From contig DATKMQ010000176.1 in assembly GCA_035541755.1 (NCBI GenBank), positions 1-64,000 on the forward strand: a stretch of DNA of 64,000 bases. Reading direction: 5' to 3'. Shown here one piece after another: positions 7,200 to 19,380 of the stretch. The stretch is from Syntrophorhabdaceae bacterium (GTDB taxonomy: Bacteria > Desulfobacterota > Syntrophorhabdia > Syntrophorhabdales > Syntrophorhabdaceae). Position 1 is the stretch's first letter; every line of letters begins with the position of its first letter. The notes below the pieces were generated by a model, which saw nothing but the letters and a program-made list of their open reading frames with translations, searched no databases and had not been told where the DNA came from. A program made the position numbers and the translations under genes.

Positions 7200-8279
7200 A
7201 TGGAAGATAAGTATCCGGCCATTCAGAGCACAGACGATGCACAAAGTGAGGCCAGGGCTTTCTCTGCGTTATCGCTTGACCAAAAGCGAGCGTTCTTAAA
7301 GACGCTTGATAAGACGCATTCCGAACCTGCGGGAATATTTCTCAATGCCGTGTACCCTGTTGAAACAGACAAGGAGATCCTGAAACTCATTCGCAGGCTC
7401 CTCTTCAAGCTGAAGGCCGCCGGGGTTAAGGTCGAGGAACCGAAGGCGGTGGGAGACACGGTCTTAAGACGCATCGAGGAAGTGCGGGAGCACCGCGGTT
7501 TCCTCACAAATTATGACTACACCGAGACAAGGCTCGTGGTGGCAGGCTTCGAGTTAAAGAGGAATACCTATCTTTTTCTTAACGCCGAGATTCATTTCGC
7601 AAAAGGCCTCACAGAGCTTATGAGCGCACCGGTGGACAAGAAGGGTTTTGAGGGCATCCTCAATGAATACCGGAAGGACACCAGACGACCGATGCTTTTC
7701 GAAGAGATCTCTCCAGCCTACGCCGCGTGGCTCATCGAAGAGGGGTCTAACCGTTCCCACAAATTCAGGGATGAGATCAAGCCTCTGAAGTCCTTTATTG
7801 CCGGCGTGACCGCGGGTGTTGGCAGACCGGAAGATGTCTATGCGCTGAGCGTATCTGAAATGACCAATGCAGCGAAACTCGACGCCATCCTTGCCCACGA
7901 TATTTTTGACCCGTTATCGATAACCTGGGATTCCCTCGGGGAAGATAGAAAACAATACTCAAGTGATGGCGCATCCTCCATCATCCTGCCGTCTCATATG
8001 GCGGCGCAAAGAAAGACTGAATATCTGGAAAGGCTCTCTCAACGCTCTGACATCAATGCTATGATCCCATTACTTAAACGCATGATGGAAGACTACGCAT
8101 ATCTTTTCTACTGCATGAAGGAATTCTCCTATTACCGGGGACTCATGGCGTATCTTGCCGGAGAGGCCGGGGCACACGATGTGCTCATCCACTTTCTCAA
8201 AAAATCTCTTGAAAAAAAGGAAGAAAAGCCCGAAGGCCAGGACACAGGCCAGGGGCTTATCATAAACCCATATGGGTAA
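7200..8279 (+). CDS. Hypothetical protein, 359 aa, coupled to rlmE
   Basis: I do not recognise this family. The protein is soluble and mostly helical. Notable stretches are ILKLIRRLLFKLKAAGVKVEEP, an RRPMLFEEISPAYAAWLIEEG segment, and a late MMEDYAYLFYCMKEFSYYRG. The C-terminus is charged and Lys/Glu-rich (KKSLEKKEEKPEGQD). There is no signal, membrane helix or clear catalytic motif. The start lacks a good ribosome site: GAGAGGG lies about 16 bases upstream, and the gene follows copZ by 22 bases. Its last eight bases overlap rlmE, which suggests translational coupling and perhaps a role in ribosome or RNA metabolism; that is inference only. Confidence 0.75.
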   Translation: MEDKYPAIQSTDDAQSEARAFSALSLDQKRAFLKTLDKTHSEPAGIFLNAVYPVETDKEILKLIRRLLFKLKAAGVKVEEPKAVGDTVLRRIEEVREHRGFLTNYDYTETRLVVAGFELKRNTYLFLNAEIHFAKGLTELMSAPVDKKGFEGILNEYRKDTRRPMLFEEISPAYAAWLIEEGSNRSHKFRDEIKPLKSFIAGVTAGVGRPEDVYALSVSEMTNAAKLDAILAHDIFDPLSITWDSLGEDRKQYSSDGASSIILPSHMAAQRKTEYLERLSQRSDINAMIPLLKRMMEDYAYLFYCMKEFSYYRGLMAYLAGEAGAHDVLIHFLKKSLEKKEEKPEGQDTGQGLIINPYG

Positions 8280-8865: not shown

Positions 8866-9051
8866 CACAATAGACCTCCTCCAATTGAAAAGACAATGGT
8901 CGATATTACGAGAACGCGGGGCGCCCGCGAAAGCCCCCTCTCCGACAGAAAGAATCGTATAAACATATCTAAACTACTGCATACACTATACTTAGAAAGC
9001 ATAGGTATGAAATAGGAAATCAACTGATACAAACGCCTTCTTTTTTTCTCC

Positions 9052-9057
9052 TATAAT
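9052..9057 (+). promoter_or_regulatory. TATAAT six bases before the UbiA gene
   Basis: A perfect -10 hexamer ends six bases before the ATG at 9064. If used, transcription would start at or next to the ATG, giving a leaderless mRNA, or the real start would be the in-frame ATG at 9169, which has GGAGGTG before it. No good -35 is seen at the matching distance. Confidence 0.45.
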
Positions 9058-9063
9058 CTCCGT

Positions 9064-10146
9064 ATGATGATTTTGACTGATAAGACGCATTATTCGACAA
9101 TTGAGAAAATCAATCAGGAGGCGTTATGGAAAAAGGGATCGCTCTTCTTTAACGACTATGGAGGTGTCATGCAGAATCAAGGCTTGCGGTTCTCAATTTC
9201 ATATGTAAAGTCCATGCGTCTATACTACGGCTTTGTGACAGGTATAGCCGGGTGGATCGGCGTCTCCTACTATAAATTTTGTGAACCGGACCAATTTCAT
9301 GTGGGCAGGGGTATTCTTATCCTGATCGTGCTTTTTCTCAGCTGGGGCGTCAACCAGATTGTCAATGACTACATGGGACTTGCCGAAGATCGTATTAACG
9401 CGCCCAATCGTCCGATGGTGACCGGCGAATTGAATCCCTCCCTGGCCATTGGTATTTCGTTCTTACTGACCGTTGGAATGCTCGGTCTCTCCTGGCAACT
9501 TAACCCGTGGTCTATTATCCCCGTTATCCTGGGGGTTATCCTGAACATAGTTTACGAATACGCCAAGGCCTGGTCCCTGGTAGGAAACGGGGTATTCGGG
9601 TTAGCCATAAGCATGGCCACCGCGTATGGCTTTCTCGCCTCGGGCCCGCTCCCTGAGCCTCTTTTTACGAAGAACAGAATAGCCGCCATGATACTCGTGA
9701 TAATCCTCAACGGGCTTATGACCTACTATACATACTTTAAGGACGTGAGAGGAGACAGGAGAGCGGGAAAAAAGACGTTTATCGTACGACACGGGCTGAG
9801 AGTGGCCAGATCAACAGGTATCGCCGGGGCTTTCCTGCCCACAGCGGTATACCTCTTTTTTCTGATAGCAAAATGGATGCCTTCAAGTGATATCCTCTTT
9901 ATGGAACATTTTGTATTTTGCGGTGTCATAACGATATTCCTGCAGCTATGGACGGCCGTACTCTACTTCAAATATCCCTATGGTGAACGAACATACTTCA
10001 GCCTCGTCACAAATATAAGGGCCTGCGTGGCAGGACAGGTAGCTATTATCGCCATATTTAACGGAACTCTGGCGCTCTATTTGCTCTGTGGAAGTTACGT
10101 CTTCATAGGATTTCTCTTCGATCTTTACAGGGATGCCAGGTCGTAA
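9064..10146 (+). CDS. UbiA-family prenyltransferase, first gene of the seven-gene operon
   Basis: An integral membrane protein of 360 residues with about eight or nine hydrophobic segments. Both Asp-rich UbiA motifs are present: NDYMGLAEDRINAPNRP near residues 100-116 and YFKDVRGDRRAGKKT near 221-235. UbiA enzymes bind a prenyl (or similar) diphosphate through Mg2+ and transfer the chain to an aromatic ring, a glycerophosphate or another acceptor. Two starts are possible: ATG 9064 (TATAAT six bases upstream, perhaps leaderless) or ATG 9169 with GGAGGTG, which trims 35 residues that precede the first helix. The acceptor is not inferable from sequence; neighbours point to a lipid-like product. 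Confidence 0.88.
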   Translation: MMILTDKTHYSTIEKINQEALWKKGSLFFNDYGGVMQNQGLRFSISYVKSMRLYYGFVTGIAGWIGVSYYKFCEPDQFHVGRGILILIVLFLSWGVNQIVNDYMGLAEDRINAPNRPMVTGELNPSLAIGISFLLTVGMLGLSWQLNPWSIIPVILGVILNIVYEYAKAWSLVGNGVFGLAISMATAYGFLASGPLPEPLFTKNRIAAMILVIILNGLMTYYTYFKDVRGDRRAGKKTFIVRHGLRVARSTGIAGAFLPTAVYLFFLIAKWMPSSDILFMEHFVFCGVITIFLQLWTAVLYFKYPYGERTYFSLVTNIRACVAGQVAIIAIFNGTLALYLLCGSYVFIGFLFDLYRDARS

Positions 10147-10147
10147 T

Positions 10148-11443
10148 ATGAAACGAGACAGCTCACGGTATATTACAGGTTTCAGAAAAGCAATCCTCTA
10201 CACATACATCAGTCTCAGCGTCATGCTCAAATATCTAACGCGACCGGCGCTCTTTCAATGGTCTCTGAGAGCGTTCTGTCTGTTTCTACTCAGGTCTTTC
10301 CGGCTCCTTCTCGCATTCCGACACCACAAGGCGGTCCGCGTGGAGGGCGGCTATAAACTCGATCTCTACCTGCCCGCATTTCCGTCCAAGGCCTTCTTTT
10401 CCGCGCTTGAGGGCAAGGTTATTCGTAAACCTCCATCCCCTGTCACAGTAGTCTTCTCAACTACCAAGGCCTGTCAATACAGGTGTTCTCATTGCTACCA
10501 GCGCAAAGATGAAAACGCGGATATGGATGAGACACTTATGGTCGATACGGCAAAAGCCCTTCAGGAAATGGGTGTAGCCATGTTCGACATTGAAGGAGGA
10601 GAGCCTTTTTTACGTTATTCCCGTCTCCTTTCCCTGATCAAGAGTCTCGATGAACGGTCCGAATTGTGGGTCAACACAACAGGGGCGGGCATAAAATCCG
10701 GCATGCTCGAAGAACTGAAAAAGTATGGCCTTTTCGGTCTCATGATATCGATCCATTCACCTGACCCAAAAAACCACGATGCACTCACCGGTGTTGAAGG
10801 CTCCTTCGATCTTGCCTGCAAGACCGTCGGGCAGTGTCGTGCCGTGGGACTGACCGCTGCGATAAACAGCGTGCTTTCTGAAGAGGAGGTGCGCATCGGT
10901 GGTCTTGATCGGCTCATGTTCCTCGCAAGAAAGCTCGATGCCGATTTTGTCCAGCTCATTCATCCTAAACCGGCGGGCATGTGGCTCGGCCATAAGCAAG
11001 GTATGCAGACCGATCCAGGACTTATCGCCTTTATTCAGCAGGAACATATCCGCTACAACAGTCATCGTTATGCCGACTATCCCTCCTTAAGCGCCCAGGT
11101 TTTTGAGGAATCCGAGAAGACCTTCGGCTGTACTTCCGGCGGTATCGACCGCTTTTACGTGAACGCGAGCGGCGAGATCCAGCCTTGCGAGTTTCTCAAC
11201 ATCTCTTTTGGAAACGTCCGGGACGAACCTCTCACAACCGTATTCGCCCGTATGAGATCGGCTTACACAGAGCCATGCTGTGACTGGCTCTGTGTAAGCC
11301 AGGGGGAAAATATTTATCATCTGATGGAACGTTATGAGACGCACGTTACTCCTCTTCCCTGGACTATCGTCAGCAAACTTGTCAAAGAATGGCACAGAGG
11401 GAAACCCACGCCGCTGTACGAAAAACTGGGGATTTACCGATGA
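10148..11443 (+). CDS. Radical SAM protein with SPASM-like C-terminus
   Basis: The protein of 431 residues has the radical SAM cluster motif CQYRCSHC (CxxxCxxC) near residue 112, a GGEP-like motif (EGGEPFL), and a C-terminal Cys-rich region: FGCTSGG, QPCEFLN and PCCDWLC, which likely binds one or more auxiliary clusters as in SPASM/twitch proteins. The N-terminal 90 residues are hydrophobic and basic (FQWSLRAFCLFLLRSFRLLLAF), suggesting membrane association. The ATG at 10148 sits directly after the UbiA stop; an in-frame ATG at 10133 overlaps it. The reaction is unknown. An exact 16-base inverted repeat lies in the coding sequence at 11260-11300. Confidence 0.88.
   Translation: MKRDSSRYITGFRKAILYTYISLSVMLKYLTRPALFQWSLRAFCLFLLRSFRLLLAFRHHKAVRVEGGYKLDLYLPAFPSKAFFSALEGKVIRKPPSPVTVVFSTTKACQYRCSHCYQRKDENADMDETLMVDTAKALQEMGVAMFDIEGGEPFLRYSRLLSLIKSLDERSELWVNTTGAGIKSGMLEELKKYGLFGLMISIHSPDPKNHDALTGVEGSFDLACKTVGQCRAVGLTAAINSVLSEEEVRIGGLDRLMFLARKLDADFVQLIHPKPAGMWLGHKQGMQTDPGLIAFIQQEHIRYNSHRYADYPSLSAQVFEESEKTFGCTSGGIDRFYVNASGEIQPCEFLNISFGNVRDEPLTTVFARMRSAYTEPCCDWLCVSQGENIYHLMERYETHVTPLPWTIVSKLVKEWHRGKPTPLYEKLGIYR
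11260..11300 (+). repeat. Perfect 16-bp inverted repeat inside the radical SAM gene
   Basis: GGCTTACACAGAGCCA (11260-11275) is exactly complementary to 11285-11300, with a nine-base loop TGCTGTGAC. The mRNA would form a strong hairpin over the codons for the last cysteine cluster (PCCDWLC). Confidence 0.9.
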
Positions 11444-12360
11444 AGTATCGTCTGGTCATGAACCCGTCTTCCCGCTCAGGCAGGGGCGTTCGACTCTGGG
11501 AGGCATGGAGGGACCGTCTTGCAAGGGCTTTAATCCCCTATGAATCCTTTGTCACGGAAAAGCAGGGAGATGCATGTCGGCTGGCCAGGGAATGCGAGGG
11601 GGAATCCGTGGTCGTCGCAGTGGGAGGCGATGGCACCATCAATGAAGTTTTGGATGGGATCCTGCAATCAGGGAACCCCGGCCTGCAGATGGGTGTGCTC
11701 TACGCGGGCACGAGTCCCGATTTCTGCAGATTTCAGCGTATTCCGGTGGATTGCGAAGAAGCACTGGACACGTTGCTCAAAGGCAATATAACTGAGGTTG
11801 ATGTGTGCCGGATACGGTATACCGATGAAAAAGGGAATAATATCACGGCCCATTTCGGGTGCAGCAGCAATATCGGCATGGGTGCTGCAGTTGCCCGCTC
11901 TGCCAATCAAATGCGGCGATCTTTGGGTGATACGCTCGGTACCGGCGCCGCTCTCCTGAAGACCATCTTCAGCAGCCGGCCCGCGGATCTGGACATGATA
12001 ATCGACGGGGAACCCGTGTCTCTGGCAAAGGTCAACAACCTCTCCGTGATCAAGAACCCTTATCTGGCATCGGGACTGAAACTGGATTTAAGCGTGAGAC
12101 CTGACGATGGGAATCTATGGGTGATGGGTCTTTACGGAAAAAGCAGGTCAGGCTTTCTGCGGCTTTTGCCGGGCTGGTACACCGGGTCTGTTGTTCGTTA
12201 TCCCGGAATTTATCTCAGGAAGATGCGTACAATCAAAGTCACTGCCGCCCCGAGGCAGGAAATAGAATTCGACGGCGATCCACGCGGGCGCCTGCCTGCA
12301 GAGATCGAATTATTACCCAAAGCGCTACGACTGAGGGGCGCCTCCTATGAAAGAGCATGA
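11440..12360 (+). CDS. Diacylglycerol/lipid kinase family protein
   Basis: The 306-residue protein begins MKYRLVMNPSSRSGRG, the nucleotide-binding opening of the DAGK/YegS/sphingosine-kinase family. The signature AVGGDGTINEVLDGI lies near residues 53-67, and a later TEVDVCRIRY, then GIYLRKMRTIKV and IEFDGDPRGRLPAEIEL complete the fold. These enzymes phosphorylate a lipid hydroxyl (diacylglycerol, sphingoid base, ceramide or undecaprenol) using ATP. The ATG overlaps the radical SAM stop (ATGA), so the two are coupled; the frame opening at 11389 is not the likely start. The substrate may be the product of the oxoamine synthase and SDR encoded downstream, which is inference. Confidence 0.87.
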   Translation: MKYRLVMNPSSRSGRGVRLWEAWRDRLARALIPYESFVTEKQGDACRLARECEGESVVVAVGGDGTINEVLDGILQSGNPGLQMGVLYAGTSPDFCRFQRIPVDCEEALDTLLKGNITEVDVCRIRYTDEKGNNITAHFGCSSNIGMGAAVARSANQMRRSLGDTLGTGAALLKTIFSSRPADLDMIIDGEPVSLAKVNNLSVIKNPYLASGLKLDLSVRPDDGNLWVMGLYGKSRSGFLRLLPGWYTGSVVRYPGIYLRKMRTIKVTAAPRQEIEFDGDPRGRLPAEIELLPKALRLRGASYERA

Positions 12361-13336
12361 ATGGATCGGACTCATTACACATGGATTGAAACGCGATGCA
12401 CGTCAAAGAAACAGGCTCTTTGAATGCGATGCCGAGATCCTCGAAATGAACGGGCAGTTGTGGGCATTAACGCTCGACCAGTTCTCACCTGAAGAAGACA
12501 TGTTTTCTTCTGAAGAACCGGAAATTCTCGGGGCCAATCTTGCGACGGCAACCATCAGTGATCTTTTCGCTGCCGGAGCAATGCCTGAGTTTTTTCTGCA
12601 GGGACTCACCATCTGTCACAGCGCCGACAAGGTGTTTGTCCGCCGATTGGCTCAAGGGATCGTAAGCGTTTTATCGAGTGTCGGCTGCGCCTTGTGCGGA
12701 GGAGACCTTGGAGAGGCCGAACAATGGCGGTTCAGCGGCTTTGCCATGGGTCGTGTTCGAGACAACAAACCTCTGTCCCGTATTTTACCCGAACGATCTC
12801 ATTCCATCTGGGTTACGGGAAACTTCGGAGACGCCAACCTTGCAGTCCTTGAGAAAGGACCGACCCCCGTGTTTGAAGTCCGCAACAGGGAGGCTCAAGT
12901 CATTCACAAATATGGCACCGCCTGCATAGACACAAGCGGCGGTCTTGTGGATGCGCTGTGGTGGTTGCATACGCTCAATCCGGATACGCGCTTCGAGATC
13001 GATCTCAATCGCATCCCTCTGGCAAGCGGTGTCCGGGAGGCGGGAAAAGCCGAAGTTCCGATAGAAGCCTTTCTATTAGGCGGTGCTGGAGAATATGAAC
13101 TCCTCTTCAGTGTGCCTGAGCCTATTACGTCTGAGATCCAGGATGCTTTGCAGACGATTCAGACAATTCGTATCGGAGAAGTGTACCCGCGTAGCCACGC
13201 CGGTCTGTATTTTCGGAAACAGGGTGTAGTTGTCTCCAGGATGGAGACTGAACCTCCGTGTCCCAGGGAGAACTTGAATCGGGAAGCCTATATTCAATCC
13301 GTCCTGAGCGTGGCGAGAAAGCTGGCCGGAGAATAA
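12347..13336 (+). CDS. ThiL/AIR-synthase-like kinase with altered motifs
   Basis: The 329-residue protein follows the thiamine-monophosphate kinase layout: an acidic metal site (CDAEILEMNGQLWALTLDQF), then ANLATATISDLFAAGAMPEFF, CALCGGDLGEA, DTSGGLVDALW and GGAGEYELLFSVP. ThiL has GDDAA in place of ECDAE and GGGEDYELLF in place of GGAGEYELLF, so catalytic acids differ in part. ThiL converts a monophosphate to a diphosphate. In this operon a lipid monophosphate made by the preceding kinase is an attractive alternative substrate; this is inference. It overlaps the lipid kinase by 14 bases, with GAGGGG eight bases before its ATG. Confidence 0.8.
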   Translation: MKEHEWIGLITHGLKRDARQRNRLFECDAEILEMNGQLWALTLDQFSPEEDMFSSEEPEILGANLATATISDLFAAGAMPEFFLQGLTICHSADKVFVRRLAQGIVSVLSSVGCALCGGDLGEAEQWRFSGFAMGRVRDNKPLSRILPERSHSIWVTGNFGDANLAVLEKGPTPVFEVRNREAQVIHKYGTACIDTSGGLVDALWWLHTLNPDTRFEIDLNRIPLASGVREAGKAEVPIEAFLLGGAGEYELLFSVPEPITSEIQDALQTIQTIRIGEVYPRSHAGLYFRKQGVVVSRMETEPPCPRENLNREAYIQSVLSVARKLAGE

Positions 13337-13342
13337 AAGGAT

Positions 13343-14557
13343 ATGAATTACAATCCTCTTTTTAAGCAGCTTAATTTACGAAACATAGTCTTAAAAAACA
13401 GGATTATTCGTTCCGCTACCTATGAAGGCTGGGGAGATCCGACCGGCGTCCCGCAACCCGGATTGGGTGATCTTTACGCCACACTTGCGCGGGGCGGAGT
13501 AGGCGCTCTGATTACGGGATTCGTTTATGTCTCAGCGGAAGGCCGGGCCATGCAGAAAAGACAGTGCGCTATGGACCGTGATGCAATGATCGAACCCTGG
13601 CGGCAGATAGTAGGCAGAGCAAAAGAGGCGGCAGCCGATTTGAAGATCTTCATGCAACTCGCCCATACAGGCCGGCAGACAAGAAGAGAAATAACGGGGC
13701 GAGAAGTACTCGGCGTTTCGTCAAAAAAATGCTCCTATTTCAGGCAAAGTGTCAGGCCACTCGACACGAGGGAAATATCTAGGATCATCGACGATTTCGC
13801 GCAAGCGGCCAGGCGGGCGCAGCAAGCTGGATTTGACGGTATTCAAATCCATGCGGCTCACGGTTATCTGATTCATCAGTTTTTATCGCCATTAACCAAC
13901 CGGAGAAGGGACGAGTGGGCAGACAGGCCCTTATTTCTGGAGCAGATCGTCAAGCATATCAGGGGACATTGCGGCTCAGGCTTCCCCGTGCTCGTGAAGT
14001 TGAGCGCCATGGAAGACACCGAATGCGGCATCCGTTTGTCAGATACCATTCAAACCATTGAGCGCTTAAAACCTTTGCAGGTCGATGCCTGGGAGATAAG
14101 TTACGGCACCATGGAGTATGCACTGAATATCATTCGGGGAGCTTTGCCCTGGGATACGGCCTTTGAAATCAATCCACTTCTGTCCGGTATTCCCAAATGG
14201 CTGCGTACGGTCTGGAAAAAATGTTTCATGCGACAATACGTGAAAAGAATCATGCCCTTTTCGGAGGGATACAATATACCTTCGGCAGCGGAAATAAAAA
14301 GGCGAACCGGCGAAACCGTACTGGCAGTGGGAGGATTACATTCCGCGTCAGTCATGCGCGATAGTCTTACCCTGCATGGCCTCGATGCGGTTTGTATTTG
14401 TCGCCCGCTGATTTGCGAGCCGGATTTTCCCGAAAAGATCCGTCTCAAGTCTTCGAACCAGTCAGCCTGTACAAAATGCAATCTTTGTTTGATTCATTGC
14501 GATGGCACGACGCCGCTGCGCTGCTACGGCACAAGCGTAAGAAAGCATGGTGACTGA
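13343..14557 (+). CDS. NADH:flavin oxidoreductase, Old Yellow Enzyme family
   Basis: The 404-residue protein has the OYE barrel pattern: LRNIVLKNRIIRSATYEGWGD at the N-terminus, FMQLAHTGRQT, GFDGIQIHAAHGYLIHQFLSPLTNRR, VLVKLSAMED and LAVGGLHS for the FMN phosphate site. A short C-terminal Cys cluster (CTKCNLCLIHC) recalls the iron-sulfur site of the 2,4-dienoyl-CoA reductase branch, though the larger NAD-binding domain of that branch is absent. It should reduce an activated C=C bond using FMN. It lies six bases after the ThiL-like gene, with AAAGGAT before the ATG. A likely role is saturation of an unsaturated intermediate of the operon product. Confidence 0.87.
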   Translation: MNYNPLFKQLNLRNIVLKNRIIRSATYEGWGDPTGVPQPGLGDLYATLARGGVGALITGFVYVSAEGRAMQKRQCAMDRDAMIEPWRQIVGRAKEAAADLKIFMQLAHTGRQTRREITGREVLGVSSKKCSYFRQSVRPLDTREISRIIDDFAQAARRAQQAGFDGIQIHAAHGYLIHQFLSPLTNRRRDEWADRPLFLEQIVKHIRGHCGSGFPVLVKLSAMEDTECGIRLSDTIQTIERLKPLQVDAWEISYGTMEYALNIIRGALPWDTAFEINPLLSGIPKWLRTVWKKCFMRQYVKRIMPFSEGYNIPSAAEIKRRTGETVLAVGGLHSASVMRDSLTLHGLDAVCICRPLICEPDFPEKIRLKSSNQSACTKCNLCLIHCDGTTPLRCYGTSVRKHGD

Positions 14558-15800
14558 AATGAAACATTTCGAGGATTTTACGGCGTGTAGGAATCAGGAT
14601 ATTTTCCAAAAGGCGAACGATTTTTGTATCGAATCAGAAAACGAAAATCTCAAACCCTACGTGGATGCTTTGATGGTCCATACGTTAAGCGGAGCCAGGA
14701 GCCGCTCTTTACTCGAAGAGCGAGACGGCAACGTCCATGAAGTTATTATGCTCGGTTCCAATTCCTATTTTACACTCACGAGCCATCCGGACGTGGTAGC
14801 CGCTGTCAAATCGGCCTGCGATCAGTACGGCTACGGCGCTGGAGCCGTATCTCTGTATGCGGGCATGAGTGACCTGCACCTTAAGCTGGAAAGGCAGATC
14901 GCGGAGTTCCACAATACCGAGGACGCCATACTCTTTTCCTGCGGATATGCCACAAACGTAGGGGTGATCTCGGCGCTGTGCGGCCTCGGTGATGTAATTA
15001 TCAATGACGCATTCAATCATGCCTCCATCTTTGACGGATGCCGCTTGTCCGGTGCTGACACACAGGTCTACCTGCACAGAAACATGCGCCATCTGGAAAA
15101 GGTACTCCGACGTATACCTCATTCGAAGAAAGGTCGCCTGATTATCACTGACGGGGTCTTCTCAATGGATGGTGACTTAGCTCCGCTTAATGAGATCGTG
15201 GATCTTGCCTCGAAGTATTCCGCTCGCGTCATGGTAGATGATGCTCACGGCCTGGGTGTTGTCGGCCCCACAGGTCGAGGCACCGCGGAAGCCTACGACG
15301 TCGTGGACAAAATCGACTTACACGTTGGAATGCTCAGTAAAACTCCTGGAGCCATAGGAGGTTACTGCGCAGGCACGAAGGCTCTTGTGCGTTACCTGCG
15401 TTTTTATGCCAGGACCTACTTTTTTTCCACAAGCCTGCCGGCTCCGGTAGTTGCCGGTCTTATAGAGGTCTTTAGATTGCTGCTCGAAGACAAAACGGAC
15501 CGAAAACAATTATGGACCAACGTTAACCGATTACGCGAAGGTTTGATGAGATCAGGGTTCAATACGGGAAACAGTCAATCGGCTATTATTCCCGTTATTA
15601 TCGGTGATGAGACTAAGGTTATCAATTTCTGCAACGATCTCAGGGTTAACGGTGTTTACACCAATATCGTTACATATCCCGCAGTGAGAAGAAAACAGTG
15701 CAGGCTGAGGCTCTGCGTCATGAGCACGCTCACAGAAAGACAGATCGAGCAGGTTTTAGAACTGTTCAGTACCCTCGGGAAGAAGCACGGTGTTATCTGA
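14547..15800 (+). CDS. PLP-dependent alpha-oxoamine synthase (BioF/KBL/SPT family)
   Basis: The 417-residue protein belongs to aminotransferase fold type I, oxoamine synthase branch. Seen are YGYGAGAVSLYAG, NHASIFDGCRLSGA, the PLP-ring aspartate motif VMVDDAHGLGVVGPTGRGTAE, and the Schiff-base Lys in GMLSKTPGAIGGYCAG. Members condense an amino acid with an acyl thioester and release CO2 (KBL: glycine plus acetyl-CoA; BioF: alanine plus pimeloyl thioester; SPT: serine plus palmitoyl thioester). The DDAHG signature is closer to BioF/KBL than to DEAHS-type SPT, so the substrate is open. It has an N-terminal extension of about 50 residues and overlaps the OYE gene by 11 bases. Confidence 0.88.
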   Translation: MVTEMKHFEDFTACRNQDIFQKANDFCIESENENLKPYVDALMVHTLSGARSRSLLEERDGNVHEVIMLGSNSYFTLTSHPDVVAAVKSACDQYGYGAGAVSLYAGMSDLHLKLERQIAEFHNTEDAILFSCGYATNVGVISALCGLGDVIINDAFNHASIFDGCRLSGADTQVYLHRNMRHLEKVLRRIPHSKKGRLIITDGVFSMDGDLAPLNEIVDLASKYSARVMVDDAHGLGVVGPTGRGTAEAYDVVDKIDLHVGMLSKTPGAIGGYCAGTKALVRYLRFYARTYFFSTSLPAPVVAGLIEVFRLLLEDKTDRKQLWTNVNRLREGLMRSGFNTGNSQSAIIPVIIGDETKVINFCNDLRVNGVYTNIVTYPAVRRKQCRLRLCVMSTLTERQIEQVLELFSTLGKKHGVI

Positions 15801-16875
15801 TAATAAGCGATTTGTGTTTATAACGGGCGGCACCGGATTCATCGGCAGTTACACTGTAGATGAATTTATCGGCAACAATTGGCATCCCATCGTACTGGTT
15901 CACCGGACTGCAAGCCCGCAATTGAAAGAGATGGAACGCAAAGGACTCATCACCATGGTCACCGGTGATGCTGCGGACGAGTACGCCTTAAGATCAGCCT
16001 TCAATGAAACTATCCGCAAATGCCGCTGCGTTCCTGAACGCGTTGTCCATTGTGCCGGGCGGGCAAGCGACATGGGAAGAGATAAAGATTTCAAGGCAAT
16101 CAATTTTGATTCTCTGAGATATCTGACAAGAATCGTGTCGGAATTTGGGGTAAACAAAATCGTGTTTATATCCTCCACGGACGTTTATGGGTTGAAGGAT
16201 TTCAGTCACGAGCAGGAAGAGGAACTGACCTTTTTTCGTCATCCTAGTAATCCTTATCCGGCATATAAAATTGCGGCTGAGACATGGTTAAGGGCTCACC
16301 TCGCTCCTGAAAGATATTCGATCGTGAGGCCCGCCGCTGTGTGGGGAGCAGGCGACAGAACCCTGACGCCCCGATTTGTGGCGCTGCTTCGCAAAAGCCC
16401 ATGGATAATCCACTTCGGCCCCTGGAAAGGCAAGAACCGCTGGCCTCTGGCCCACGTGAGAAATGTCGCCGCTGCAATTTATATCGCCGCAACAGATGAG
16501 GATCTTTCCGGAAAGGCCGTTCACGTGCTTGATACTGAATATACCTCTGTCGATGAATTCTACCGGATGCTGGCAATGGTTTATACACCCGGTAAAACGT
16601 TTCGTTCCGTGAGCCTTCCCTTTTGGATCGGGTATTCTCTTGGCTTCGCCGCCACTACATTGTCCAATCTGTTGCGTCGTGATTGCCCGATATTCGATCC
16701 AACCCTCTACGGTCTGTACTCGGCAAGTGCAAATCTCAATTTCAGCAACCGTCACTTTCTCGCATACATGAAGAGGGCAAACCGGCAACCGATTACGCGC
16801 GAGCAAGGACTGACAGAGCTGGCAAAAGAAGTAGAACAGCATACCCCGATAGTTCGTTCGTCTCGTCCCTCATAA
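15790..16875 (+). CDS. Extended SDR (NAD-dependent epimerase / 3-beta-HSD type)
   Basis: The 361-residue protein opens with a Rossmann motif TGGTGFIGSYTVDEF near residue 12, has VHCAGRASDMG, the strand IVFISSTDVYG and the catalytic YPAYK with upstream Ser. The C-terminal half (PSNPYPAYKIAAE, RPAAVWGAGD, TLSNLLRRDCPIF) fits the 3-beta-hydroxysteroid dehydrogenase-like branch, which reduces or oxidises lipid ketones and hydroxyls. The start is GTG at 15790, overlapping the oxoamine synthase by 11 bases, so they are coupled. A 3-keto reductase for the oxoamine product is the simplest guess; CerR of bacterial ceramide synthesis is a related kind of enzyme. Last gene of the operon. Confidence 0.86.
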   Translation: MLSDNKRFVFITGGTGFIGSYTVDEFIGNNWHPIVLVHRTASPQLKEMERKGLITMVTGDAADEYALRSAFNETIRKCRCVPERVVHCAGRASDMGRDKDFKAINFDSLRYLTRIVSEFGVNKIVFISSTDVYGLKDFSHEQEEELTFFRHPSNPYPAYKIAAETWLRAHLAPERYSIVRPAAVWGAGDRTLTPRFVALLRKSPWIIHFGPWKGKNRWPLAHVRNVAAAIYIAATDEDLSGKAVHVLDTEYTSVDEFYRMLAMVYTPGKTFRSVSLPFWIGYSLGFAATTLSNLLRRDCPIFDPTLYGLYSASANLNFSNRHFLAYMKRANRQPITREQGLTELAKEVEQHTPIVRSSRPS

Positions 16876-16959
16876 AATCTGATGAAACGGAAGCGTCCTT
16901 ACCCAACGATCACGGATATGTAACGGGGGACTCTCTTTCTTTTCATCTGGCCGTCGGTG

Positions 16960-16965
16960 TATAGT
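16960..16965 (+). promoter_or_regulatory. TATAGT seven bases before the metallophosphoesterase gene
   Basis: TATAGT ends seven bases before the ATG at 16973, and no ribosome site is visible. As with the UbiA gene, a transcript from here would begin at about the start codon. Confidence 0.35.
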
Positions 16966-16972
16966 AGTATCC

Positions 16973-17794
16973 ATGATCAACCTTACTCGCCGTGTAAGAA
17001 AGACGATCACGGCGCTTATAGGCGTTTTCATCCTTGCGCTCATTCCATTCTCTGCTATTGCGCAGCGACAGGAACCCTTTGCGATCGTCAGCGACACGCA
17101 TATCAGGACGGGAAACTACAGCGTGTACTCCTCTTTCCTGCGTCTCATGGAACAGGAGAAGATCAACATGATTATCCACACCGGGGACGCCATCGATAGC
17201 CCCGGTGAGCTCCGCCAGTGGGCGAAGTTCCTTGAACTTACCGGACCGGATAAGACGCTCCATCTTGCACCCGGCAACCACGACATATCAGGCAGGAGGA
17301 GTCTCTCGGTTTATCTGCGTTTCTTTCCAAAAACATATTATTCCTTCTCTGAGGGAGATACTCTTTTCGTTCTCCTTAATACAGAGCTTCCAGGAGAAAA
17401 GGCCAGCATTACCGGGGAACAACTCGCGTGGCTCAGAACAGAGATCGGGAAATCGTTCAAATATAAATTCGTTTTCCTCCACGAGCCGCTCTATCCCATA
17501 ATCGCAGGGCACGGCCTTGACAGGCATCCCAAGGCGAGAGACGACCTCCACCATTTGTTCGTTACCCACGGGGTTTCGCTTGTCGTCTCAGGCCATGATC
17601 ACCTCTACGGCCGGACCATAAAAGATGGGATTCTCTACGTCACCGCGGCAACGCTCGGCGGATGGCTCCCCTTCGGCTCGAAAGATTACGAGGCCTTCCG
17701 ATACATCGTGGCAGAAAGAAACGAATCTGGCTACTCATTTCGTGTGATCGATATGGAAGGTGCGACAAGGGATCAGTTTGTTGTGGGCCGCTAA
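16973..17794 (+). CDS. Secreted calcineurin-like metallophosphoesterase
   Basis: The 273-residue protein has an N-terminal signal peptide (basic MINLTRRVRK, hydrophobic core, AIAQRQ cleavage region) and the full dimetal phosphoesterase signature: IVSDTHI (DxH), IHTGDAID (GDxxD), APGNHDI (GNHD), VFLHEPLY, and SGHDHLYGR (GHxH-like). It should hydrolyse phosphate mono- or diesters in the periplasm, though some such exported proteins act on lipid or nucleotide headgroups. It follows the lipid operon by 97 bases with its own possible promoter. A functional tie with that operon is plausible but not shown. Confidence 0.88.
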   Translation: MINLTRRVRKTITALIGVFILALIPFSAIAQRQEPFAIVSDTHIRTGNYSVYSSFLRLMEQEKINMIIHTGDAIDSPGELRQWAKFLELTGPDKTLHLAPGNHDISGRRSLSVYLRFFPKTYYSFSEGDTLFVLLNTELPGEKASITGEQLAWLRTEIGKSFKYKFVFLHEPLYPIIAGHGLDRHPKARDDLHHLFVTHGVSLVVSGHDHLYGRTIKDGILYVTAATLGGWLPFGSKDYEAFRYIVAERNESGYSFRVIDMEGATRDQFVVGR

Positions 17795-18076
17795 TCCCGC
17801 TCATTTTCGCTTGAATGGCTCGACCGGGTAGCAGCCGATCGGTAACTCCCGTTTGCTTCCGGCTGGTGTATCTCATTTTGTTCTGTCATACGGTGCCCTC
17901 GTATGCTAAACTAGCGGGATCATCGGGAGAGGGCTGTAATTGAATTGTCGGTTCAGTAAATAGCCACGCAATTTCGTCGCACCGTCCGTCATAGACCGAA
18001 GAAAATACGGTCGGCAAAGCCTGATGTCACTTCATGTGAGAAGTATCGCAAAAAAATGCCATAAGGATATCAGATT

Positions 18077-18328
18077 ATGAATAACCATATAATCGGCTAC
18101 GTAGCCGCCTTTCTCACCACCTTCGCAGGTATACCCCAAATCGTCCGTCTCCTCAAACTCAGGGAATCGAGAGACATATCACTGGCAACGGCGCTTTTTC
18201 TTGGCATCGGAGTGTTGTTGTGGCTCATCTATGGGCTCGCCATAGGCGACAGGCCGCTCATCGCTGCAAACTCCATCTCCCTGTGTATTTCCGCTGCCAC
18301 GGTCCTTCTCGTGCTAAGATACCGCTAA
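18077..18328 (+). CDS. SemiSWEET / PQ-loop-like small transporter
   Basis: The 83-residue protein has three transmembrane helices and the PQ-loop motif in TTFAGIPQIVRLLKLRESRDIS, followed by a second helix LGIGVLLWLIYGL and a third. This is the three-helix half of a SWEET protein; such SemiSWEETs dimerise to form a sugar uniporter in the inner membrane. AAGGATA lies upstream of the ATG. The 282 bases before it show no gene. Confidence 0.85.
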   Translation: MNNHIIGYVAAFLTTFAGIPQIVRLLKLRESRDISLATALFLGIGVLLWLIYGLAIGDRPLIAANSISLCISAATVLLVLRYR

Positions 18329-18486
18329 AACGACCGCAGAATTACCGCCACCACCTCCCGTCGGTAATCGTCTCGAACTGCAGATAAGTGAGGCCGGTCC
18401 GGCTAAAGTTTTTCCTTATACCCTCCTCACCCATGTTGCTATGCTGTTCCGTTATCTCTTGACAACGAACCAATCACGGGCAAATA

Positions 18487-19197
18487 ATGAAGAAGAAGAA
18501 GCCTGAGCAAGGCACGTCCGCCTCAATCATACCGGACTTGTACTTGGGGCGCGATGATGAGAGGTTCACCGGCTCTTCGGAGGACGAGCACCATGTCAAC
18601 GAAGGAATTTATACGATGACGAGCAGCGTCAAACCTTTCGGGGCCGGCAGGAGCAGCTTCGAGTTCGTAGACACGGACCTCGTTCTTCATGCCCTTGCGC
18701 TTACGCCGTCAACCGTCTTTGTCGACCTCGGGTGTGGAAAAGGTAACTATACTTTAGCTGTGGCCTCAACTCTTCAGTCGCAGGGCCGGGTATACGGAAT
18801 TGATGCATGGCAGGAGGGGCTTGACGAGCTGCGGGAGCGCGCAGCGCGTCTCAGTCTAAAGAATATCATTACCATTCAGGCGAACTTAAACGAGCACATA
18901 CCGATCGAAGACGGTACGGCAGATATTTGCTTCATGGCAACCGTTCTTCATGATCTACTGCGAGACAGCACAGGCAACAAAGCACTAAGCGAGATAGCCA
19001 GGGTCCTGAAACCTACGGGTCGAATAGGTATCATTGAATTCAAAAAGATCGAGGACGGTCCCGGGCCACCGCTCAAGGTTCGATTATCTCCGGAGGAAAC
19101 GGAGCAAATTATCTCGCCTTTCGGGTTTGTGAAGGACCGGTTGACAGACCTCGGGCCTTTTCACTATCTCATTACCGCATCTTTCGCAAAGAAATAG
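18487..19197 (+). CDS. Class I SAM-dependent methyltransferase
   Basis: The 236-residue protein has motif I FVDLGCGKGNYTLAVA near residues 78-93, VYGIDAW at the end of strand 2, ICFMATVLHDLLRD and RVLKPTGRIGIIEFKK. It resembles UbiE-like or arsenite-type methyltransferases but lacks features that fix a substrate. The first 40 residues are charged and rich in His/Asp/Glu. The ribosome site is weak. It is monocistronic, convergent with the Aas-like gene on the other strand. Confidence 0.8.
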   Translation: MKKKKPEQGTSASIIPDLYLGRDDERFTGSSEDEHHVNEGIYTMTSSVKPFGAGRSSFEFVDTDLVLHALALTPSTVFVDLGCGKGNYTLAVASTLQSQGRVYGIDAWQEGLDELRERAARLSLKNIITIQANLNEHIPIEDGTADICFMATVLHDLLRDSTGNKALSEIARVLKPTGRIGIIEFKKIEDGPGPPLKVRLSPEETEQIISPFGFVKDRLTDLGPFHYLITASFAKK

Positions 19198-19380
19198 CGG
19201 TAGACGCATTGCAGCGCCTCAGGAACGGGTGTTTCTTCCACGAGACTTAAAGAAACCTGATGAGACTCCGAATATCCAGTTGTACGTACGTTGAAGGGCA
19301 CAAGATGCGGCAGAGCGAGCGGATGCGCTTTCCCTAACGTGCCGTCATGCGGACACATAACATATAACACGGAACACCGT

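Follow-up and report, generated by a model that had tools for sequence, protein, structure and literature searches.

The window analysed here is a whole stretch of 64,000 nucleotides, positions 1 to 64,000 of contig DATKMQ010000176.1 (assembly GCA_035541755.1) of a Syntrophorhabdaceae bacterium. Between positions 9064 and 16875 it carries seven open reading frames (ORFs), A to G, arranged head to tail on the + strand with overlaps of up to 55 bp and gaps of at most 6 bp. A (9169..10146) encodes a UbiA-superfamily membrane transferase. B (10133..11443) is a radical S-adenosylmethionine (SAM) enzyme with a helical N-terminus and a three-cysteine twitch/SPASM-like C-terminus. C (11440..12360) is a lipid kinase of the DAGK/YegS fold and the GTSPDFC subfamily, and D (12347..13336) is a ThiL-like AIRS-family kinase with changed acceptor-site motifs. 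E (13343..14557) encodes an old-yellow-enzyme (OYE) ene-reductase with C-terminal iron–sulfur (Fe-S) cysteines, F (14547..15800) an alpha-oxoamine synthase (AONS) with the pyridoxal phosphate (PLP) lysine Lys265, and G (15790..16875) an extended short-chain dehydrogenase/reductase (SDR), a probable aminoketone reductase. Pfam agreed with the family name of all seven proteins, and none of the seven reached an NCBIfam equivalog cut-off. An earlier note, made from the sequence alone, had described these genes with the same order, strand and tight packing, and the ORF check and Pfam bore this out. Two starts were revised. A more likely begins at ATG 9169 than at the ORF opening at 9064, because GGAGG lies at 9160-9164 and the homologues begin there. 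For kinase C, whose ORF opens at 11389, ATG 11440 (MKYRLVMNP) is the likelier start, in line with its homologues.

About 85,000 species genomes were scanned with a two-sequence alignment of B as bait, and 80 loci with 36-61% identity were kept; B is thus present in 80/80 loci by construction. These loci span about 16 phyla: Verrucomicrobiota/Kiritimatiellota/Lentisphaerota, Planctomycetota, Elusimicrobiota, Armatimonadota, Zixibacteria, Auribacterota, Riflebacteria, Omnitrophota, Bdellovibrionota, Myxococcota-like Deltaproteobacteria, Alphaproteobacteria, Bacillota, Neomarinimicrobiota, Sumerlaeota, and one metagenome-assembled genome (MAG) of Thermoplasmatota. Most of them come from MAGs, and three come from Bacillota isolates (Petroclostridium sp. 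X23, Acetivibrio alkalicellulosi DSM 17461 and Herbivorax sp. ANBcel31). A was found in 73 of the 80 loci, C in 76, D in 69 and an AONS in 66. The gene set is more than a chance grouping, because the six core genes A, B, C, D, F and G were all present in 50/80 loci and in 22 of the 30 incomplete loci a contig end leaves less than 9 kb of sequence on one or both flanks of B. The earlier note had named a neighbourhood unique to this genome as the outcome that would speak against it; instead, the gene families recur together. Single genes do resemble BioF/KBL, ThiL, DgkB and DCR, as would unrelated housekeeping genes brought together by chance or by an assembly error. However, the same set occurs across the phyla listed, isolates included, and a true ThiL and a BioF exist elsewhere in the genome. 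The flanking RlmE is 76% identical to that of a same-genus genome, which indicates that the contig belongs to the genome and is not foreign. The recurrence already refutes this explanation, and we give it practically no weight.

The pairwise identity matrices of B, C, D, E and G were correlated across loci (rho 0.67-0.86; B-D 0.86, B-E 0.86, D-G 0.83, B-C 0.81), and the observed value was reached in 0/199 permutations. Together with the loci that hold all six core genes, this indicates that the genes are co-inherited, as expected of the unit made together that had been proposed. About 130-150 bp separate rlmE from aas in two family relatives (L171 and L172), and 10.5 kb separate them in the window. 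Because this 10.5-kb stretch is absent from both relatives, the block with A to G has probably been acquired. The inserted block (8866..19380), delimited by rlmE-aas synteny, also holds a metallophosphoesterase (16973-17794) and a SAM methyltransferase (18487-19197), which have no counterpart in the other clusters and were not counted as pathway genes. The GC content was 0.509 in the cluster and 0.519 in the rest, so composition gives no sign of transfer. A radical SAM search of 446 genomes of the own phylum found no second copy of the cluster; the matches there (23-34% identity) were other enzymes, some of them fused to a methyltransferase. In the phylum of the Elusimicrobia locus L045, only the genome of that locus matched in a 150-genome sample at E below 1e-60. 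The cluster is therefore sporadic in that phylum, with the strict cut-off making the count a lower bound. It is almost certain, in our view, that the genes serve one pathway, and we read the cluster as a horizontally spread biosynthetic unit.

The related clusters fall into several architectures. Class 1, the type of the window, reads A-B-C-D-E-F-G and occurs in Elusimicrobia, Kiritimatiellae, Armatimonadetes and others. Class 1b lacks E (A-B-C-D-F-G) and includes many host-associated Lentisphaeria. Class 1c, from rumen Kiritimatiellae/Lentisphaeria, reads F-A-B-C-D-G. Class 2, from Riflebacteria and Bdellovibrionota/Myxococcota, has a mixed arrangement of A, E, a resistance-nodulation-division (RND) exporter, a ketosynthase (KS), an acyl carrier protein (ACP), a dehydratase-like protein, F, G, B, C and D. 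Class 3 (11 loci) reads A-E-ACP-F-C-D-KS-G-B and is found in Bacillota, Omnitrophota, Sumerlaeota and others; the Petroclostridium cluster counts nine genes, ACP and KS among them. Pfam backed the identities of the KS, the ACP and the MMPL exporter; the dehydratase-like protein had only a sub-threshold match to PKS-DH. The MMPL/RND exporter was seen in the Riflebacteria and Bdellovibrionota clusters.

F matched Pfam Aminotran_1_2 with 172 bits and stayed below the NCBIfam cut-offs for bioF (366 of 426 bits), KBL (381 of 460 bits) and serine palmitoyltransferase (SPT; 342 of 640 bits). H158, D231, H234 and K265 were invariant and R388 near-invariant, and all PLP-site residues are present. In the trees, the window F lay in a clade of class 1, 1b and 2 enzymes (support 100/99). 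Class 1c F fell in the SPT clade (100/97), with 12 clusters there in the larger tree, and class 3 F made up a third group, long-branched, whose position near KBL is unsure. These three positions indicate that AONS enzymes of at least three lineages occupy the F slot. A grouping of F with KBL, which the earlier note had set as an outcome against its reading, did not appear; F stands apart from KBL and BioF in the trees as well as in score. F as the housekeeping BioF was rejected, since the BioF of this genome lies beside BioA, away from the cluster. At a locus of another family in the same phylum (L016:6259-11638), a distant radical SAM relative stands beside a BioF-like AONS and thiM, thiE and thiL. 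This locus was rejected as a member of the cluster on account of these thiamine-gene neighbours and of its AONS, which falls with BioF/ALAS.

G matched Pfam Epimerase with 103 bits, and Y156xxxK160 and TGxxGxxG were invariant in 59 sequences; it is distantly related to the SDR of a Klebsiella SPT locus. A dedicated ACP was present in 23/80 related loci and a KS in 20/80, and neither was found in the window operon. The absence of an ACP had been noted before; it is a local feature, since some related clusters do have one. In class 3 the ACP lies directly upstream of F, Cys-His-His is intact in the KS, and the class 3 cluster genes showed no ketoreductase of the KR/FabG type. The class 2 KS keeps the Cys and lacks both catalytic His (e.g. 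L054:4449-5693 and other Riflebacteria loci), and it may therefore be a transacylase.

Bacterial ceramide pathways have AONS, SDR, lipid kinase and ACP as their core (PMC11324152; further sources for the comparison are PMC11087976 and PMC10331486), and the cluster could be such an ordinary sphingolipid pathway with tailoring genes along for the ride. The Caulobacter-type pathway (Spt, AcpR, AasR, CerR, CerS, CpgB) has in common with the cluster an AONS, an extended SDR and a DAGK-superfamily kinase and, with related clusters, also a dedicated ACP, and an SPT-clade F sits in the slot in 12 clusters. The sphingolipid-like core that had been proposed stands to this extent, but the window AONS lies outside the SPT clade. 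A (73 loci), C (76) and D (69) are at least as constant as the AONS (66), which hardly suits passengers, and the UbiA enzyme, radical SAM enzyme, ThiL-like kinase and OYE have no counterpart in the Caulobacter-type pathway. The cluster has no acyl-ACP synthetase, and no ceramide synthase candidate was found among the recurrent cluster genes, the rest of the genome not having been searched; a separate operon is known to hold cerS (PMC11324152). The kinase C is also not close to the kinase of a Roseomonas sphingolipid locus. An ordinary ceramide pathway is thus quite improbable.

The sister of the window F clade was PigH of the prodigiosin clusters, its nearest named neighbour, with support that is not firm (90/83), and the two share an N-terminal extension. 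For PigH, a condensation of serine with a beta-ketothioester is predicted (PMC7283389). By this analogy, F could join an amino acid to a beta-ketoacyl-ACP to give a 1,3-diketo-amine and then an alkyl-hydroxypyrrole-methanol, whose hydroxymethyl group the kinases would activate, and A would join the ring to a prenyl or lipid chain. The active-type KS and the ACP of class 3, the lack of a KR/FabG-type ketoreductase there, the ACP-tethered substrate, and the fact that UbiA enzymes commonly alkylate aromatic rings would fit such a route. However, other clusters have an SPT-clade enzyme as F, the SDR is kept in nearly all loci that are long enough, and the window cluster has no KS. PigH carries fused ACP domains, and the cluster lacks the proline-to-pyrrole genes. 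No counterparts of PigA, PigC, PigF or PigM, the last an oxidase, were seen among the recurrent cluster genes, so the cluster does not class as prodigiosin-type. We consider the pyrrole route improbable, if a little less so than the ceramide pathway. A prodigiosin-like cluster with a PigH-type AONS was also seen on a plasmid of the methanotroph Methylocystis iwaonis (L117:1971-19707).

C matched Pfam DAGK_cat (88 bits) and YegS_C (66 bits), with DgkB (2qv7) nearest in the profile search. Across phyla it has an invariant GGDGT, GTSPDxC (GTSPDFC in the window) where lipid kinases have GTxND, and DGD near the C-terminus. The likeness to a DAGK-family ceramide kinase noted earlier holds for the family; with the DAGK of the Roseomonas locus, the one sphingolipid-locus kinase compared, C showed no close kinship (one match of 31% over 73 residues). 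D matched Pfam AIRS with 42.5 bits and the thiL model (TIGR01379) with 120 bits against a cut-off of 184, and therefore falls outside ThiL proper. Its AlphaFold model (pLDDT 94) matched AaThiL at a template-modelling (TM) score of about 0.72-0.78. Like ThiL, D has this fold and most of the Mg/ATP aspartates, with GGD, DTSxG and GEYELLF present. Unlike ThiL, it has DAE in place of the GDD region, with one aspartate lost, and DEFSxEED in place of the thiamine-site GVHF. D as the housekeeping ThiL was rejected; a separate true ThiL (267 bits) is encoded on contig C179. Because the genome has ThiL and BioF elsewhere, neither D nor F is the housekeeping enzyme. Where a locus has both C and D, the two genes are nearly always neighbours.

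A matched Pfam UbiA with 90 bits (cut-off 34), and its closest solved relative in the profile search was the archaeal digeranylgeranylglyceryl phosphate (DGGGP) synthase 6m31. In 18 loci NQ-x3-D102-x5-E108-D109-x2-N112-AP-x-RP and K226-D227-x2-G230-D231 were invariant, and the signature across phyla is GxNQxxND-x5-ED-x2-N-AP-x-RPM with KDxxGD. A belongs to the UbiA superfamily: the second motif is intact, and the first is altered with its acids conserved. A could act like DGGGP synthase and place an isoprenyl diphosphate from central metabolism on the lipid phosphate made by C, with D acting later or on another group. The product would be an isoprenyl/acyl hybrid lipid, and a prenylated lipid is possible. 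The best NCBIfam matches include geranylgeranylglyceryl phosphate (GGGP) geranylgeranyltransferases, below cut-off, and the distal DRIN-x-P-x-RP part of the motif and DxxGD are retained, which is consistent with this reading. However, the first motif is NQ-x2-ND-x5-ED and not NDxxDxxxD, its second aspartate being replaced. A reached 51.7 of 296 bits with the curated DGGGP synthase model and at most 63.7 bits against equivalog cut-offs of at least 269, no prenyl synthase gene lies in the cluster, and D, which resembles a phosphate kinase, would be left without a clear role. We hold a DGGGP-type A to be unlikely, though less so than the pyrrole route. Another contig of this genome (C75, locus L023) has a second UbiA-family gene together with genes for a polyprenyl synthase, an HpnA-like SDR, a radical SAM enzyme and a glycosyltransferase, possibly another lipid locus.

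B matched Pfam Radical_SAM with 53.5 bits and SPASM at its cut-off. C114/C118/C121 are conserved, as are the auxiliary C333-x13-G347-x4-C352 and C387, as in twitch-like domains. With CxxxCxxC and the auxiliary-cluster cysteines, B is a SPASM/twitch radical SAM protein. The nearest folds to its AlphaFold model (pLDDT 92) in Foldseek were SuiB and SkfB at a TM of about 0.5; since these are general radical SAM relatives only, no reaction can be named for B. Distant relatives of B, with identities of about 30%, carry a fused class I SAM methyltransferase (L030:9341-11362 and L017:1-2118), an arrangement seen in another family and in six genomes that belong to one related genus.

E matched Pfam Oxidored_FMN with 163.5 bits, with OYE/YqjM nearest in the profile search. 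It lacks the FAD domain of DCR/BaiCD. H170, H173, Y175 and the cysteines C376/C379/C382/C386/C394 were invariant, and the OYE active site is complete. A ferredoxin-nitroreductase gene adjoins G in 12 loci, all without E (e.g. L067:13351-14160 and L075:6291-7136), and was found in 0/38 E-bearing loci within the sequence covered; the 12 loci are related and are not 12 independent events. Both enzymes are flavin reductases with Fe-S centres, which suggests that the pathway requires an Fe-S/flavin reduction and that it can come from either of them.

The constancy of the subfamily signatures across phyla speaks for activity in all seven enzymes, on substrates that are altered and shared. From these families we infer the following chemistry. 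F would condense an acyl or beta-ketoacyl thioester with an amino acid to an alpha-aminoketone. The thioester would be held on an ACP, dedicated in the related clusters and probably the general one in the window genome. SPT uses serine, and because PigH is also predicted to do so, serine would by analogy be the likeliest co-substrate. G would reduce the ketone to a sphingoid-like amino-alcohol, C would phosphorylate a hydroxyl of the lipid, and D would add a second phosphate. A would then use the lipid diphosphate as an electrophile, or prenylate the lipid phosphate in the manner of DGGGP synthase, and either way form the key bond in the membrane. E, or the Fe-S nitroreductase in clusters without E, would reduce an activated double bond, B would perform radical chemistry on the lipid, and the RND transporter would export the product in diderm relatives.

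We put the probability of this overall reading, in which the cluster makes an amphiphilic amino-lipid, at about 0.5. That the product is a lipid is very likely, and a sphingoid-like core is slightly favoured. The kinase series would be the least certain step. ThiL, the known member of the family of D, converts a monophosphate to a diphosphate. From this chemistry, the near-constant adjacency of C and D and the analogy of tocopherol synthesis, we infer that the two kinases act in series. In that pathway the kinases VTE5 (phytol kinase) and VTE6 (phytyl-phosphate kinase) make phytyl diphosphate for the UbiA-type phytyltransferase VTE2 (PMC5745509). The likeness lies in two serial kinases turning a lipid alcohol into a diphosphate for a UbiA enzyme; it is one of logic only, the substrates of D and A here being predicted ones. 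VTE5 and VTE6 presumably belong to families other than those of C and D. A diphosphate made by C and then D has somewhat less than even chances, and its use by A is more tentative still.

Several observations weigh against this amino-lipid route. The window F lies outside the SPT clade and could take an amino acid other than serine. Several Riflebacteria loci show no D despite 9-10 kb of flanking sequence; there the gene may lie elsewhere in the genome or be dispensable. The two kinases C and D may also have separate target molecules. In A, the canonical NDxxDxxxD is without its second aspartate, and UbiA enzymes normally require a diphosphate of the allylic kind, whereas a saturated sphingoid diphosphate is not allylic. 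The distance correlation among the genes is also partly due to shared ancestry.

Each of these enzyme families is known, and we know of no pathway that unites them. The earlier note had known of no pathway that includes the UbiA, radical SAM, OYE and ThiL-like enzymes, and this stands so far: no description of the cluster was found in the full text of 5.39 million open-licence papers, subscription-only papers lying outside the search. We rate the system as categorically new, because its enzymes fell outside SPT, KBL/BioF, ThiL and DGGGP synthase as tested and no uniting pathway was found. It is doubtful, though conceivable, that it makes a new class of membrane lipid, in which an AONS-derived amino-alcohol passes DAGK-type and ThiL-like kinases in series, the diphosphate is the alkyl donor of the UbiA enzyme, the radical SAM enzyme and the Fe-S flavoenzyme complete the product, and the whole has moved among about 16 mostly anaerobic phyla. 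To our knowledge, this would be the first UbiA enzyme with a non-isoprenoid donor. If C and D do feed A a lipid diphosphate, the catalytic range of UbiA widens and a ThiL-like kinase gains a non-thiamine role. The spread over poorly cultured Omnitrophota, Riflebacteria and Elusimicrobiota and over rumen and gut Kiritimatiellae/Lentisphaeria implies an apparently undescribed lipid or lipid-like metabolite. The cluster may also account in part for the AONS genes that environmental surveys class as Spt-like, e.g. the Black Sea study that infers sphingolipid producers from Spt-like proteins (PMC11334938).

Some neighbouring features were also recorded. An ORF without a Pfam match (window 7200-8279) lies beside rlmE in the family relatives too, with 47-50% identity. 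The Thermoplasmatota contig (L102:1-2742) begins at the radical SAM gene and holds only this gene, a UbiA gene and a small membrane protein; the remaining genes may have been cut off, or the contig may be misbinned. A small membrane protein of about 125 residues, which scores above no Pfam cut-off, is repeatedly found next to the cluster: it occurs in Elusimicrobia, Omnitrophota and Verrucomicrobia and on this contig (L061:8674-9045, L062:11380-11757, L048:8007-8381 and L102:2344-2742).

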